Positions 1,865 through 7,625 of a stretch of DNA of 21,958 nucleotides are shown in pieces. Under the pieces are notes generated by a model. The model was not told where the DNA came from and ran no database searches. It worked only from the letters and a program-made list of their open reading frames with translations. The DNA lies in the IMG/VR virus record IMGVR_UViG_3300049916_000684, positions 1 to 21,958 of that record. One strand, 5' to 3'. This stretch comes from a virus. Position 1 is the stretch's first letter, and every line of letters begins with the position of its first letter. A program made the position numbers and the translations under genes.

Positions 1865-2233
1865 ATGAGCCACAAATCCAAAATAGGTGATCTCGGTGAG
1901 AAGGCGTTTGAATATGAGTGCTTGCAACGGGGCATTGAGCTTTGGGCACCTCTTTGGAGTAACCAGCATGACATTGATTTCATTGTTCGGCGTGGTGGCG
2001 ACATCAAGACGGTCCAGGTAAAGTCTACCAGCACAGCTAAGGCTGATCGGGAAGCATACGGTTTCCGGTGGACCAATTGTAACTTTGACATACTAGCCTG
2101 CCATCGAGCTGAAACGCACGATTGGTGGATAATCGAGAACGACGGGAACCTGCCCAAGGGTGGCACCTGGATTACTTATAACGGAAAATGGAAGACGCAA
2201 CTGAACAACTGGACACCCCTTCTGACGAGCTAA
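1865..2233 (+). CDS. PD-(D/E)XK-fold endonuclease, resolvase-like or homing type
   Basis: A 122-residue protein whose first 55 residues follow the small PD-(D/E)XK nuclease pattern. It opens with a GDLGEKAFEYECLQRG helix in which Glu12 matches the N-terminal acid. HDIDFIV follows, with Asp36/Asp38 as candidate metal ligands, and then VQVKST with the Gln51-x-Lys53 motif. Archaeal Holliday-junction resolvases, the I-Ssp6803I type of homing enzyme and Vsr-like nucleases share this arrangement. The C-terminal half is Trp-rich (TWITYNGKWKTQLNNW). The last 46 bases overlap the next gene in another frame. Placement between the two terminase genes fits either a junction-resolving role in packaging or a selfish free-standing endonuclease. 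Confidence 0.7.
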   Translation: MSHKSKIGDLGEKAFEYECLQRGIELWAPLWSNQHDIDFIVRRGGDIKTVQVKSTSTAKADREAYGFRWTNCNFDILACHRAETHDWWIIENDGNLPKGGTWITYNGKWKTQLNNWTPLLTS

Positions 2234-2682
2234 CAGCTCAGGAAAAGGAACAACTACGCCAACTGCGAATCAAGGCTACTAGGCTGGAGAATCAGCTAAA
2301 GAAGCTCAAGACGGTTACCCGCACTAAGGACAGCGTTCAGCGGGAGAACGATCTACGAAAGGCCAGAGGGCAAGCCAGGCACGCTGAGATGGCTTTGGAG
2401 ATGCAAGTGGAACGCCTACCCTACGTTGACCGGGTGTGGTATGACGGGTTACCAGCTAAGGTCTTTAAGCCACTACCGGGTCGTGGTCGTCTACTAGTCA
2501 AGGTATGGTCCGAGAATGGGAGGATTATCACCCATGAGGGAATACTGGAATTGCCGTATCGGAATATGATTACCTTTGTGCCGAACGATGACTTATACGT
2601 TGAGCGGAATCCTAATAACCCGGATCGCTTTCAGTTGGTAGCGGGTAGTGAGTATAACTTTAGGGGAGTAAGGATTAAGTGA
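2188..2682 (+). CDS. Coiled-coil hypothetical protein
   Basis: A 164-residue protein with two parts. Residues about 15-75 are a charged helix, with LTAQEKEQLRQLRIKATRLE and a following Lys/Leu heptad pattern, likely an extended coiled coil. Residues about 80-164 are beta-rich, including VDRVWYDGLPAKVFKPLPG and FVPNDDLYVERNPNNPDRF. The ATG at 2188 overlaps the nuclease gene by 46 bases, which is long for this genome; an internal start near the MALEM residues is possible but would remove the coiled coil. Its stop overlaps the GTG of the next gene (GTGA at 2679-2682). No family recognised; a packaging-complex accessory protein is a guess from context. Confidence 0.65.
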   Translation: MEDATEQLDTPSDELTAQEKEQLRQLRIKATRLENQLKKLKTVTRTKDSVQRENDLRKARGQARHAEMALEMQVERLPYVDRVWYDGLPAKVFKPLPGRGRLLVKVWSENGRIITHEGILELPYRNMITFVPNDDLYVERNPNNPDRFQLVAGSEYNFRGVRIK

Positions 2683-3002
2683 CCCTACCCACCTACATTA
2701 ATATCCTATCCACCGAGTATTCGCTATTCGCGTATGACAAACAGATACCGGGAACCGAGGACGACTGGGGTTTATGCGACAAGGACAAGCGTATTATCAG
2801 CATCCGGTGGAACCGTGATCCGGTAGCCAATGTGGACACTCTTATACATGAGATCCTACATGCCATATGGTATGAGTATCAGATGTGTGAGGAAGGTGAA
2901 GAGGAAGAGATCTGTGTTGGTAAGCTGGCTAGTGGTTTAGCAAAAGTAATGAAAAGGAACCCAGTGTTATTGGACTGGATAAAGGAGCAATTACATGCCT
3001 AA
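2679..3002 (+). CDS. HExxH metallopeptidase-like protein
   Basis: A 107-residue protein with a clear zinc-protease signature: TLIHEILHAIWYEYQ, in which His57-Glu58-x-x-His61 would bind zinc and catalyse. An acidic run (EEGEEEE, residues 71-77) could provide a third ligand. The upstream half has a beta hairpin pattern (DKDKRIISIRWNRD) like SprT- or ImmA-type small metalloproteases. The C-terminus is helical and contains RNPVLLDWIKEQLHA. The start is GTG at 2679, overlapping the previous stop, with a good GGGAG/AAGGA context just upstream. The last eight bases overlap the terminase start. Small HExxH proteins beside phage terminase genes are common, but their substrate is generally unknown. Confidence 0.75.
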   Translation: MTLPTYINILSTEYSLFAYDKQIPGTEDDWGLCDKDKRIISIRWNRDPVANVDTLIHEILHAIWYEYQMCEEGEEEEICVGKLASGLAKVMKRNPVLLDWIKEQLHA

Positions 3003-5109
3003 GATCACTTATACTGACGAGGTAGTTGTTAACTTTGGAGTCCCATATGAGGAGTTCGTGGGTGGCAAGGTAAACCCCCTAGCCGCCAATCCTATACCGG
3101 CTGAAGAGGCTCAGAAGCTATCGCGTAAGGATTTGCGTATAGCTAACCTATGGAAGCGTAACCGGGAGCAGTTACAGTCTGTTGACCCAACGCAATATGG
3201 GTGGACCTTTGAACGGTGGCGAGCCATCATGGACGAGTGGGACCAGTATGCTGTGCACACTGTGTATGGCGGGAATAGATGTCTAGCTGCTGAACAAGAG
3301 ATCTACGATCCGGTTGCCAAGACAAGCCGACGCATAGACTCCATCAAGGAACCCTTTCATGTATATGCTTGGGACGGTGAAAAGCGAGTTATAGCGAAAG
3401 CATCTGCGCCCTTCCGGAAAACTAGTAAGCAACAGATTTATACAGTGACTCTAGCCTCCGGTGATGTCTTTCGGGCATCGGGTGCTCACCGCGTTTTAGC
3501 TTCAAACGGCGATTGGCTTTCCGTTTCTCAGCTTGAGCCCGGAGTCGAGCTTTGCCATCCTCGGTCCAATTTGGGCAGCGTTCAGCTAAGTGTCGCCGAT
3601 GTCAAATCGCTGAGGGAAGACTGGGTTTGGGATATCGAGGTCCCCGAACACCACAACTACCTTATCGGTAACACGGTTCACCACAACTCCAGCAAATCAA
3701 CGTTCTGTGCCCGCTTATGCGTGTTTATGGCTCAGGTAATACCCGAGGCTGAGATCCGGTGCTGGAGTGTTAATGAGCAATCCAGTATCAATGACCAGCA
3801 ACGCATGATATGGGAAGCCCTACCCGAAAAGTATAAGAACATGCCCAAGGCTAAGGGTGATAACTTTAGTGTCCAGTATAGCCAGAAGAACGGGTTCAGT
3901 GGTCGTAAGTTGATCCTGCCACCATTGAATGGCAAGGGCAAGGGTAGTATTATCCATTTTCAGAACTACCGGTCCTATCAATTGGACCCGCAGGTAGCTG
4001 AGGGTTGGAAGGCACATCTAGTCTGGTTGGATGAGGAATGTCCCCAGGCGTTGTTTGAGACAATGGTCTTCCGGGTAGCTGACTATCGCGGTAGGATACT
4101 GTTGTCGTTTACGACTCTGAAGGGTTGGACAAGTTTGATTCATGACATCAATGCGGGTGCTGAGACCATTGAGAAGCGTTACAGTAAGCTATTGGACGAG
4201 ACTGTGCCTTATGAGCAACTGAGCAAGAACCGCTCCCGGTGTAAGATCTGGTATTTCTGGACGGAGGATAATCCGTATATACCATCGGATATGCTAGCTG
4301 ACCTGAAGACCCGACCCCGTGAGGAACAACTAGCACGTGCTCACGGTGTGTGTGTTAAGAGTAGCACGACTAAGTTTCCGAAGTTTAACAGGCGTATTCA
4401 CGTTATACCGCATGAGGACCTACCGTGGATTAACAAACGTAACATGGTTGTAACCCGGTATCAGACCCTTGACCCTGCGGGTAAAAAGCCCTGGGTGTGG
4501 CTATATGCTGGTGTTACTCAGTCACTGGACGAGGATATGCCCAATATCTACATATGGGATGAGTTTCCCGATAGGAGTTATGGTCATTGGGGTGTTACTG
4601 ATGAGACTCCCAAGGGTAAGCCTGGTGATGCCATGAAAAGTCTTGGTTGGGGTATCCGACAGTATATCGCTAAGATGATGGACATGGAGGGTGGTATGGA
4701 TATCTTTGAGCGTGGGATTGATAAGCGGTTTGCTAATCATACTCATACCGGCAGGGATGGGGATACCCGGTTGTTGGAAGAACTGCTACAAGAGGGTGTC
4801 CGGTATGTAACGCCGGTTACTAAGCGAGTGGACATGCGTAACGAGATCGAGCTGGGTATCCAGGCTGTGAACGATTATCTGGACTACGATGAGACACGGG
4901 ACACGGACAGTCTTAACATGCCCCATATGTTCATTAGTGACCGCTGTGAGAACCTGATAGAGTGCATGGAGAACTTTACCGGTGAGGGTGGAACGGAAGA
5001 GGTCTGGAAGGATTACATTGACTGTTTAAGGATACTACTGGAGATCAACCCTCGGTGTATTGATATGAGTCAGTTTAAGGCGGGTCGAACGGCGGTTAGG
5101 GGGTATTAA
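2995..5109 (+). CDS. terL: Large terminase subunit precursor with P-loop mini-intein
   Basis: A 704-residue precursor; excision of residues 96-231 would leave 568 residues, a normal large-terminase length. The ATP-driven motor packages DNA into the procapsid and its nuclease cuts the concatemer. After splicing the Walker A reads GGNRSSKST (residues 92-95 joined to 232-236). Walker B is HLVWLDEE with Asp346-Glu347, followed by the SFTTLKGW coupling motif at 371-378. The C-terminal nuclease domain shows TLDPAG (Asp493), IYIWDEF (Asp522/Glu523) and DYIDCLR (Asp673/Asp676) as candidate metal ligands. AAGGAG lies eight bases before the ATG. The unspliced precursor should be inactive, because the intein splits the nucleotide-binding loop. 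Confidence 0.95.
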   Translation: MPKITYTDEVVVNFGVPYEEFVGGKVNPLAANPIPAEEAQKLSRKDLRIANLWKRNREQLQSVDPTQYGWTFERWRAIMDEWDQYAVHTVYGGNRCLAAEQEIYDPVAKTSRRIDSIKEPFHVYAWDGEKRVIAKASAPFRKTSKQQIYTVTLASGDVFRASGAHRVLASNGDWLSVSQLEPGVELCHPRSNLGSVQLSVADVKSLREDWVWDIEVPEHHNYLIGNTVHHNSSKSTFCARLCVFMAQVIPEAEIRCWSVNEQSSINDQQRMIWEALPEKYKNMPKAKGDNFSVQYSQKNGFSGRKLILPPLNGKGKGSIIHFQNYRSYQLDPQVAEGWKAHLVWLDEECPQALFETMVFRVADYRGRILLSFTTLKGWTSLIHDINAGAETIEKRYSKLLDETVPYEQLSKNRSRCKIWYFWTEDNPYIPSDMLADLKTRPREEQLARAHGVCVKSSTTKFPKFNRRIHVIPHEDLPWINKRNMVVTRYQTLDPAGKKPWVWLYAGVTQSLDEDMPNIYIWDEFPDRSYGHWGVTDETPKGKPGDAMKSLGWGIRQYIAKMMDMEGGMDIFERGIDKRFANHTHTGRDGDTRLLEELLQEGVRYVTPVTKRVDMRNEIELGIQAVNDYLDYDETRDTDSLNMPHMFISDRCENLIECMENFTGEGGTEEVWKDYIDCLRILLEINPRCIDMSQFKAGRTAVRGY
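3280..3687 (+). other. Mini-intein (Hint domain, no homing endonuclease)
   Basis: In-frame insertion of 136 codons within the large terminase, residues 96-231. Block A begins at Cys96 (CLAAEQEIYDP). Block B is DVFRASGAHRVLASNGDW with the conserved His165. Block F is VWDIEVPEHHNYLIG, and block G is NTVHHN with penultimate His230 and terminal Asn231. The first C-extein residue is Ser232. These residues are what a class 1 cis-splicing intein needs: Cys1, block-B His, His-Asn end and Ser+1. The roughly 40 residues between blocks B and F are too few for a LAGLIDADG or HNH endonuclease. By eye it uses more C-ending codons than the flanking terminase sequence, which suggests separate ancestry. Confidence 0.93.
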
Positions 5110-5130: not shown

Positions 5131-5547
5131 ATGTATTGTCTATATCTAATCACAGACGGAGAGCATACTAAGGCAGGTATTACAAATGACCCTAAGCGCA
5201 GGCTGGGAATGCTTCAGACGGGCAATCCAAAACCACTTAGCATCTTGTTAACATGTCCAATGAGGAATAAAGAGGACGCTAGGCAATTAGAGAAGGCTGT
5301 GCATGATAAGTATTCAGAGCATAGGATGATGGGCGAGTGGTTCAATCTGACAGGAGACAAGATGATTGACTACGCATTGGATGTAGCCATGGAAATAACC
5401 CTCCAGCAGCAGCTTACACTAGTCAAAAATTTAGATGAAGAGGTGATCCTGAATGACTATTTGGACAAGTATGACGGGCATTCCTGGCTTTGCGATGCTA
5501 CGAGAGAGAGTCTAATGGAGGCAGCTAAGAAGGAATTCAAGTGTTGA
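5131..5547 (+). CDS. GIY-YIG-like nuclease (T5orf172 / MUG113 type)
   Basis: A 138-residue protein. Its N-terminal 75 residues match the GIY-YIG-like domain common in phages: CLYLITDG (first strand), TKAGITNDPKRRLGMLQTGN (second strand, Arg24 as candidate catalytic Arg, then the LQTGNP signature), a helix with ARQLEKAVHDKY (Glu54 as candidate metal ligand) and GEWFNL (residues 68-73). The classical GIY and YIG triplets are replaced by LYLI and AGIT, as is usual in this subfamily. The C-terminal 60 residues are helical and unassigned. AAGGA lies just upstream of the ATG. It directly follows the intein-bearing terminase gene and could be a free-standing homing endonuclease. Confidence 0.78.
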   Translation: MYCLYLITDGEHTKAGITNDPKRRLGMLQTGNPKPLSILLTCPMRNKEDARQLEKAVHDKYSEHRMMGEWFNLTGDKMIDYALDVAMEITLQQQLTLVKNLDEEVILNDYLDKYDGHSWLCDATRESLMEAAKKEFKC

Positions 5548-6224: not shown

Positions 6225-6325
6225 TGAACGGCAAAGGCTCCACACAGCGTCCCAAGGACGACAAGTATTGCACCGATGAGGAATTGGAGGAACGGTGGAA
6301 ACGGGTGTTTGGTAAGAAGGGTTAG
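6224..6325 (+). CDS. 33-residue phage GKGS protein (GKGSxxRP ... RWKRVFG)
   Basis: A short gene. It begins MNGKGSTQRPKDDKYCTDEE and ends ERWKRVFGKKG. This matches a widespread but functionally unknown class of tiny phage proteins with an N-terminal GKGS-x-x-RP motif and a C-terminal W-x-x-(I/V)FGKK motif. ATG at 6224 overlaps the preceding TGA. AGGAGG lies eight bases upstream, one of the best ribosome sites in the window, so it is certainly meant to be translated. It is the last gene of the packaging block before the terminator. Confidence 0.8.
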   Translation: MNGKGSTQRPKDDKYCTDEELEERWKRVFGKKG

Positions 6326-6365: not shown

Positions 6366-6596
6366 TCATAAGGACAACGACTGTTGCTCCGATGCAGTAG
6401 TGTCATTAACTATCTTCCTAAAAGCGTTAGCTATCCAAGATATACTACTAACCCCCTTTTGATAATGGGGGTTTTTTATGTACTCGTCTAGTAACCGGTT
6501 ATACGTACTTTCCGGGTATAACGTTTTTAACATCCTTTCCAGTGTTAAAGTATCAACTGCATCAACAGCTTCTTTGGGTATTAGCTTCTTTTTCAT
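6366..6596 (-). CDS. Hypothetical protein, convergent with the packaging block
   Basis: A 76-residue leftward protein. It begins MKKKLIPKEAVDAVDTLTLE, continues with RMLKTLYPESTYNRLLDEYI, and contains SISWIANAFRKIVND. It reads as a helical, natural-looking protein, and its start lies 35 bases after the HNH stop, so it is probably co-transcribed with HNH. There is no visible Shine-Dalgarno. The rightward terminator at 6450-6477 lies inside its coding sequence, corresponding to the KNPHYQKGV residues. No family recognised. Confidence 0.55.
   Translation of the reverse strand: MKKKLIPKEAVDAVDTLTLERMLKTLYPESTYNRLLDEYIKNPHYQKGVSSISWIANAFRKIVNDTTASEQQSLSL
6450..6477 (+). terminator. Intrinsic terminator of the packaging block
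   Basis: AACCCCC (6450-6456) pairs with GGGGGTT (6467-6473) across a ten-base loop, and six T follow the G-run (6472-6477). This is a classical rho-independent terminator on the rightward strand. The opposite strand lacks a comparable T-run, so it acts in one direction. It lies about 125 bases after the last rightward gene. Confidence 0.85.
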
Positions 6597-6631: not shown

Positions 6632-7108
6632 CTAGCAGCTGACCGAATTCCAGAACGGTTTACGCTCAACGGAAGTATTACCCGTCTTTTTGAATACTTC
6701 TACCTTGACCTTGTATTTGTCACGGAGTCGATTCAGCTCACCGGTTTTAAGGTCCTTTAAAAACTCGTAAGAGTAACCTGTTGCTTTCGACAGCTTTCTG
6801 ATTGCGGTTTGACGATTCTGCCACCGTTTTACACCCGTAACGTATTTTCGATTCTTTCTCTTCCGACTCTGCTTACGTGCCTTAGCCTTTAGTGGGTCCT
6901 TAGCATGTTCAGCCTCATGACATTTCCGGCACAACAATTCGAGGTCTGACATTAGTTCTCTACCTAACCTTGAGTATGTACGATGATGAACATCAGTAGC
7001 AAACCGGTCACACCTATTACACGTATTACCATAATGTTGAAACGCGGTTAAACGTTGTTTCAACCAGTGATCACTTAGAAGGTATTGTTGATATTCTGTT
7101 TTAGTCAT
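6632..7108 (-). CDS. Free-standing HNH endonuclease
   Basis: A 158-residue protein with an HNH domain in residues about 5-70. There is a helix EYQQYLLSDHWLKQRL, a zinc knuckle half Cys30-x-x-Cys33, the catalytic DVHHRTY (His41/42), then the DLELLCRKCHEAEH block with Cys60, Cys63, His64 and His68. Residues about 70-90 are a Lys/Arg-rich linker (KARKQSRKRKNRK), and the C-terminus has a SKATGYSYEFLKDLKTGELN helical unit that may bind DNA. The family nicks or cuts DNA and in phages is often a homing enzyme; some take part in packaging. It is oriented against the virion genes and preceded by a folded segment (7123-7382). GAGG lies 14 bases before ATG. Confidence 0.88.
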   Translation of the reverse strand: MTKTEYQQYLLSDHWLKQRLTAFQHYGNTCNRCDRFATDVHHRTYSRLGRELMSDLELLCRKCHEAEHAKDPLKAKARKQSRKRKNRKYVTGVKRWQNRQTAIRKLSKATGYSYEFLKDLKTGELNRLRDKYKVKVEVFKKTGNTSVERKPFWNSVSC

Positions 7109-7122
7109 TAGTGTTGTTGTTT

Positions 7123-7382
7123 CCTCAGCCGGTATTAGATTGGAGCACAGCGACTCCGAGGGATACTGGTGTGTAGCCCTTAGGAAGGAGTCATAAACCC
7201 CTTTGTTATCAGCGAGCCGGGTTGTTGCCCCCAGCTCTTATAGACCCTGTTAAAACCTCAGCCGTTTAATGAGTTATCGTTTTGCTTTCCCCACCTAGGA
7301 ACGGAGTCGACAGTTCCCCTAGGATTTACAGTTCACAGGATGTTAGCTTCCAACTTGGAGATTTCAAGGCACTCCTCGCCTT
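7123..7382 (-). ncRNA. Candidate structured RNA or leader upstream of the HNH gene
   Basis: About 260 bases with no credible gene but at least four local hairpins. They are AAGGC/GCCTT (7366-7370 with 7378-7382); a nine-pair stem with a two-base bulge (7294-7302 with 7313-7323); an eight-pair stem (7214-7221 with 7230-7237); and GACTCC/GGAGTC (7152-7157 with 7187-7192) enclosing AGGG/CCCT. The eight-pair stem has one mismatch if transcribed rightward but a G-U pair if transcribed leftward, which favours the leftward strand, the same as HNH. A second GGAGTC (7303-7308) in a hairpin loop could compete for GACTCC. CCTCAGCCG occurs at both 7123-7131 and 7256-7264. No known RNA class was matched; transcription is unproven. 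Confidence 0.45.
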
Positions 7383-7390
7383 AGAAAATA

Positions 7391-7596
7391 CTATAACACC
7401 ACATCATGCATAAAACTGAACATTTGTCAAATCCACAACAACATCCTTGCGCTCACGCCTGAGAAACCCCTTTACGGCCACAAGGGCGGGCAAAAGTCCG
7501 TGACTCACTGGATGGCCTTTATTAAGCATAACTATTAGGAAACGACAATGGGTAAAAACATGATTCTAATCGGAATTGCTAACAATACCCCCTGAT
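7391..7596 (+). other. Gene-poor stretch before the virion promoter
   Basis: No convincing gene. It contains a small hairpin (CCCTT 7468-7472 with AAGGG 7482-7486) and two GGCC copies (7476-7479 and 7514-7517). A leftward TTGACA (7425-7430, complement strand) has no good -10 at the right spacing. The stretch also holds a possible 15-codon reading frame at 7548-7595. Confidence 0.4.
7548..7595 (+). CDS. Possible 15-codon peptide MGKNMILIGIANNTP
   Basis: ATG at 7548 is preceded by TAGGAAACGACA, with AGGA at ribosome-site distance, and the frame ends in TGA at 7593-7595. Hydrophobic centre (MILIGIA). It ends just before the TTGACA at 7597, so it would need another promoter. It may be chance; nothing links it to a known leader peptide. 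Confidence 0.2.
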   Translation: MGKNMILIGIANNTP

Positions 7597-7625
7597 TTGA
7601 CAAAACCGATGTAATAGTATATAAG
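7597..7625 (+). promoter_or_regulatory. Sigma70-type promoter for the virion operon
   Basis: TTGACA (7597-7602), exactly 17 bases, then TATAAG (7620-7625); a TATATA lies two bases earlier. The downstream region to 7650 is extremely A/T-rich, with a further TATAAT at 7635-7640, which favours melting. It is the best promoter in the window and faces the portal-to-nozzle gene run, so it is the likely main virion (late) promoter. Confidence 0.75.

Follow-up and report, generated by a model that had tools for sequence, protein, structure and literature searches.

What does the gene-free DNA upstream of a viral HNH endonuclease gene encode, and does it act on that gene? We addressed this question in a 21,958-base fragment of virus DNA (IMG/VR record IMGVR_UViG_3300049916_000684), which is referred to as the window. 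The segment 7123-7382 contains no genes, as the initial annotation had claimed, and sits between the divergent HNH (minus strand) and portal (plus strand) genes, the HNH gene lying in the terminase-portal slot. As the HNH gene is on the minus strand, this is also the strand on which its leader has to be read. The predicted structure model of the HNH protein (pLDDT 62) was too poor for a structure search.

The neighborhood of this slot has several further features. The terminase large-subunit ORF (2995-5109) carries an in-frame mini-intein-like insert from ~3280 to 3690, right at the Walker A motif (junctions GGNR/CLAAEQ...HHN/SSKST), and the L005 homologue described below is devoid of it. Directly after the terminase, the ORF 5131-5547 is GIY-YIG-like (T5orf172/MUG113) and putatively represents a second mobile nuclease of this region. 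At the aligned start of the portal gene, ATG, GTG and TTG are all lacking, and the sequence is the same in its relative L003; an ATT at ~7655 apparently marks the N-terminus, and TTGACA-17-TATAAG is found just upstream of the portal start at ~7595-7625. A motif, TTGACAA/TTTGTCAAA-(T)C-ACAACAA, is repeated near gene starts (window ~5552 and ~7422; L003 ~2528) and may be a promoter or operator element of the phage.

We compared the locus among related viruses. IMG/VR holds near-identical copies (L002/L013, L006/L010 and L007/L011), and the sole diverged lineage is L005, a 45.9-kb contig whose portal and HNH are 75% and 67-69% identical, respectively. At the equivalent position before HNH, L005 carries a homologue of the leader, with 115 bases at 75% identity and recognizable similarity over the next 150. 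The 5′ end of the leader is invariant between the two lineages and TAAGGCGAGGAGTGCCT is identical in both leaders, though the HNH proteins are now only 67% identical; conservation does not extend to the 3′ third. We rejected plus-strand coding as the source of the conserved 115-bp block, in which an indel shifts the frame and several changes hit first and second codon positions.

The leader and the HNH gene were found together in both lineages carrying this HNH type. In L003, which is ~93% identical in the flanking genes, both are missing: homology ends at window position 6310 and resumes at 7551. C75C1 and the marine phages (42% identical) yielded no match to the leader; the HNH gene is absent from them too and, in those examined, the portal gene lies much closer behind the terminase. 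This joint presence and absence, in a sample of two, suggests that the leader and HNH gene form one accessory unit, and the sporadic occurrence of the gene (present in the window and L005; absent from L003, C75C1 and the marine phages) is as expected of a mobile gene. Beyond these viruses, blastn against phages and plasmids found no relative of the segment, three RNA patterns scanned for exact matches across the viral collection returned only the two lineages and chance matches, and a covariance-model search of 398 genomes from a single phylum yielded no copy, a weak search as the phylum was picked without knowledge of the host.

Two other folded segments were encountered during this comparison. 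In the same slot, L003 has a different intergenic segment of ~500 nt (1983-2530, minus strand) that folds far better than shuffles (z -2.9) and precedes a 65-aa ORF with a relative at window 6366-6596. In L019 (2530-2960), another phage HNH gene is preceded by a strongly folding leader of ~400 nt (z -3.6); this leader is probably not HNH-specific, because 71% similar DNA in Pseudomonas phage vB_PsaM_M1 precedes annotated hypothetical proteins.

The initial annotation had described the segment as a multi-hairpin, possibly switching RNA, in which one GACTCC can pair with either of two GGAGTC copies. These motifs are located where it had placed them (GACTCC at 7152; GGAGTC at 7187 and 7303; the repeated CCTCAGCCG at 7123 and 7256), but the switching model found no support, since the pairs occur at chance level and are absent from L005. 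The segment contains 7.5 six-base inverted pairs against 9.4 expected, and 6-mers with two complementary partners are as frequent in 12.6% of shuffles. The CCTCAGCCG repeat is likewise unremarkable, as a 9-base direct repeat arises in 14.6% of shuffles and this one is missing in L005. Nor was the proposed masking of a GAGG ribosome site supported: the GAGG is 14 nt away from the ATG, whose surroundings are predicted to be unpaired, and L005 has no equivalent. Neither a Shine-Dalgarno sequence for HNH nor a masking helix is conserved between the window and L005. Folded as a whole, the segment is no better than dinucleotide shuffles on either strand (plus, z = +0.38; minus, z = +0.04). What survives of the earlier description is a multi-hairpin RNA upstream of HNH that is shared with L005 on the minus strand; its features are collected in Table 1.

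Table 1. Features of the leader and its surroundings (window positions unless stated otherwise)
Feature	Position	Strand	Remarks
Conserved core of structured leader	7182..7385	minus	homology to L005; consensus fold beats column shuffles on this strand only
Leader core homologue in L005	4838-4636 (L005)		matches window 7385-7182
5′ domain	7349..7385	minus	helix P0 enclosing hairpin P1 and a possible H-type pseudoknot
Helix P0	7385-7382 with 7352-7349	minus	one double-sided change
Hairpin P1	7381-7378 with 7370-7367	minus	AGGC/GCCT; invariant (conserved, without covariation)
Possible H-type pseudoknot	7375-7372 with 7360-7357	minus	GGAG with CTCC; invariant (conserved, without covariation)
Hairpin P2	7294..7323	minus	5 + 4 bp; four pairs changed on both sides; loop TGNCNACT conserved
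Hairpin P3	7214..7237	minus	GAGCTGGG/CCCGGCTC, in L005 GAACTGAG/CTCGGTTT; two pairs changed on both sides
Hairpin P4	7185..7203	minus	AAGGGG/CTCCTT; loop TTTATGA conserved
Predicted promoter	7403..7430	minus	TTGACA-16-CATGAT; 10/12 consensus matches
HNH endonuclease gene	6632..7108	minus	158 aa; PF01844; 67% identical to L005 protein; 3′ of leader
Portal ORF	start ~7655/7694	plus	divergent from HNH gene

The five helices P0-P4 are common to both leaders, and once the alignment is corrected by hand, each leader forms all 31 pairs. Seven of these pairs are changed on both sides and four on one side, a number of changes reached by 164 of 20000 letter swaps in a test biased in favor of the structure, because P2 and P3 need structure-placed gaps. 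As the hand correction favors the structure, the untouched MAFFT alignment is the fairer test. On this alignment, RNAalifold gave z-values of -2.4 to -2.6 for the whole leader on the minus strand (1-6 of 300 shuffles) and of about 0 (+0.3) on the plus strand, while P3-P4 reached a consensus-fold z of ~ -3 on the minus strand. Against the portal-gene controls, whose 20 z-values average ~ -0.9 with one at -3.7, this signal is good without being overwhelming. When the pairs were shifted by one to three columns, the paired cells fell from 84% to 36-61%, and seven cells are G-U wobbles on the minus reading that would become A-C mismatches on the plus strand.

The individual hairpins differ in how they compare with 1000 shuffles: none folds as well as P3 of the window and 2 as well as that of L005, whereas P2 of L005 is matched by 4 and the window copy, at 340, is not unusual. 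The conserved TGTAAA/TATAAA immediately 5′ of P2 is a possible pairing partner of the P4 loop, a contact with little or no covariation. Taken as a comparison of two independent sequences only, conservation of the structure is moderately supported.

The predicted promoter would place the transcript start at ~7396, roughly ten bases before the conserved core. An A at 7405 in L010, L011 and L013 changes the second hexamer to CATAAT, closer to consensus (11/12 matches). L005 keeps TTGACA but has a poor second hexamer, for which the conserved TTATAGT just upstream of the core may be an alternative.

Several roles can be considered for such an RNA. A spacer with chance hairpins, retained through common descent, would account for the failure of the fold energy to exceed shuffles and for the diverged 3′ third, and only two sequences are at hand; nevertheless, the strand specificity of the consensus fold, the seven double-sided pair changes and the constancy of TAAGGCGAGGAGTGCCT despite 67% HNH identity argue against a non-functional leader, which we regard as rather unlikely. 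The conserved loops GAGGAGT, TGNCNACT and TTTATGA, the compact 5′ domain and the end of the conserved part ~75 nt before the HNH start would also suit a small phage RNA acting in trans, or an RNA scaffold, that shares the HNH promoter and is processed from the leader. This is doubtful, given that no terminator-like site separates the core from HNH on the minus strand, the rest of the window offers no long stretch of complementarity, and the RNA is seen only before HNH genes.

The covariance-model search that the initial annotation had proposed, with HEARO and group I models included, returned nothing: the segment matches no Rfam family at the gathering threshold or at permissive E-values, and contains no tRNA. 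A guide or scaffold RNA of the HEARO/omegaRNA kind, bound by the HNH protein, is suggested by the location upstream of an HNH gene and by a weak IscB-model match, which is confined to the HNH region (28.5 bits vs a cut-off of 175). Such a role is very unlikely, since the 158-aa protein lacks the split RuvC around its HNH domain, the HEARO model does not match at any threshold, and the leader has no variable guide but a 5′ end that is invariant between lineages. It is equally improbable that the RNA and this small RuvC-less protein work as a ribonucleoprotein, with the RNA assisting the nuclease in target choice or cleavage. Nothing beyond position favors a guide-like role, though it would matter far more if true. 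HNH genes often reside in introns and the nearby terminase gene carries the mini-intein-like insert, yet a group I or other self-splicing intron, or a ribozyme remnant, is exceedingly unlikely: no intron or ribozyme model of Rfam matched, HNH runs opposite to portal, and the segment is not flanked by a split gene.

We therefore favor, with about even confidence, a structured 5′ leader of the minus-strand HNH mRNA that acts in cis on HNH expression. In the two lineages, a conserved RNA structure is found upstream of the endonuclease gene and on the same strand, as in homing-endonuclease leaders. A cis-acting leader is the simplest reading because structure and gene lie on one predicted transcript and phage endonuclease genes are often leader-controlled, including the homing endonuclease genes of T4 and Aeh1, which are governed by leader RNA structures (PMC2988022). 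Judged from its position and the practice of phage homing endonuclease genes, the role is most likely cis-regulatory, and the leader is most likely a control element of the HNH gene rather than a guide RNA. As masking of the ribosome site is unsupported, we infer the step from structure to expression. Minus-strand transcription would probably start near 7396, and the first ~200 nt would fold into a pseudoknot-like 5′ domain and three hairpins. The leader may limit, time or stabilize HNH expression in cis, and would travel with the gene as an accessory cassette in the terminase-portal slot. It is best read as a narrow, undescribed structured RNA that accompanies a free-standing HNH gene. Confirmation would extend the short list of structured leaders known from phage nuclease genes by a small undescribed motif, and would illustrate how selfish nuclease genes may be held in check.

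Among known systems, the HEARO/omegaRNA of IscB is likewise a structured RNA of ~200 nt upstream of an HNH-containing gene, but model match, RuvC domain and guide segment are all lacking here. The operator of T4 gene 32 is an mRNA leader with a 5′ H-type pseudoknot. The possible compact pseudoknot near the 5′ end of our leader resembles it, though in resemblance only, as the gene is different and the pseudoknot here is a candidate. The T4-type homing endonuclease genes, free-standing or intron-borne (I-TevI, segB and the HNH gene mobE of Aeh1), likewise carry RNA structure in their 5′ leaders (PMC2988022). Whereas the T4-type leaders usually, if not universally, hide the ribosome site in a hairpin, the HNH start codon is predicted to be open and the multi-hairpin domain lies well upstream.
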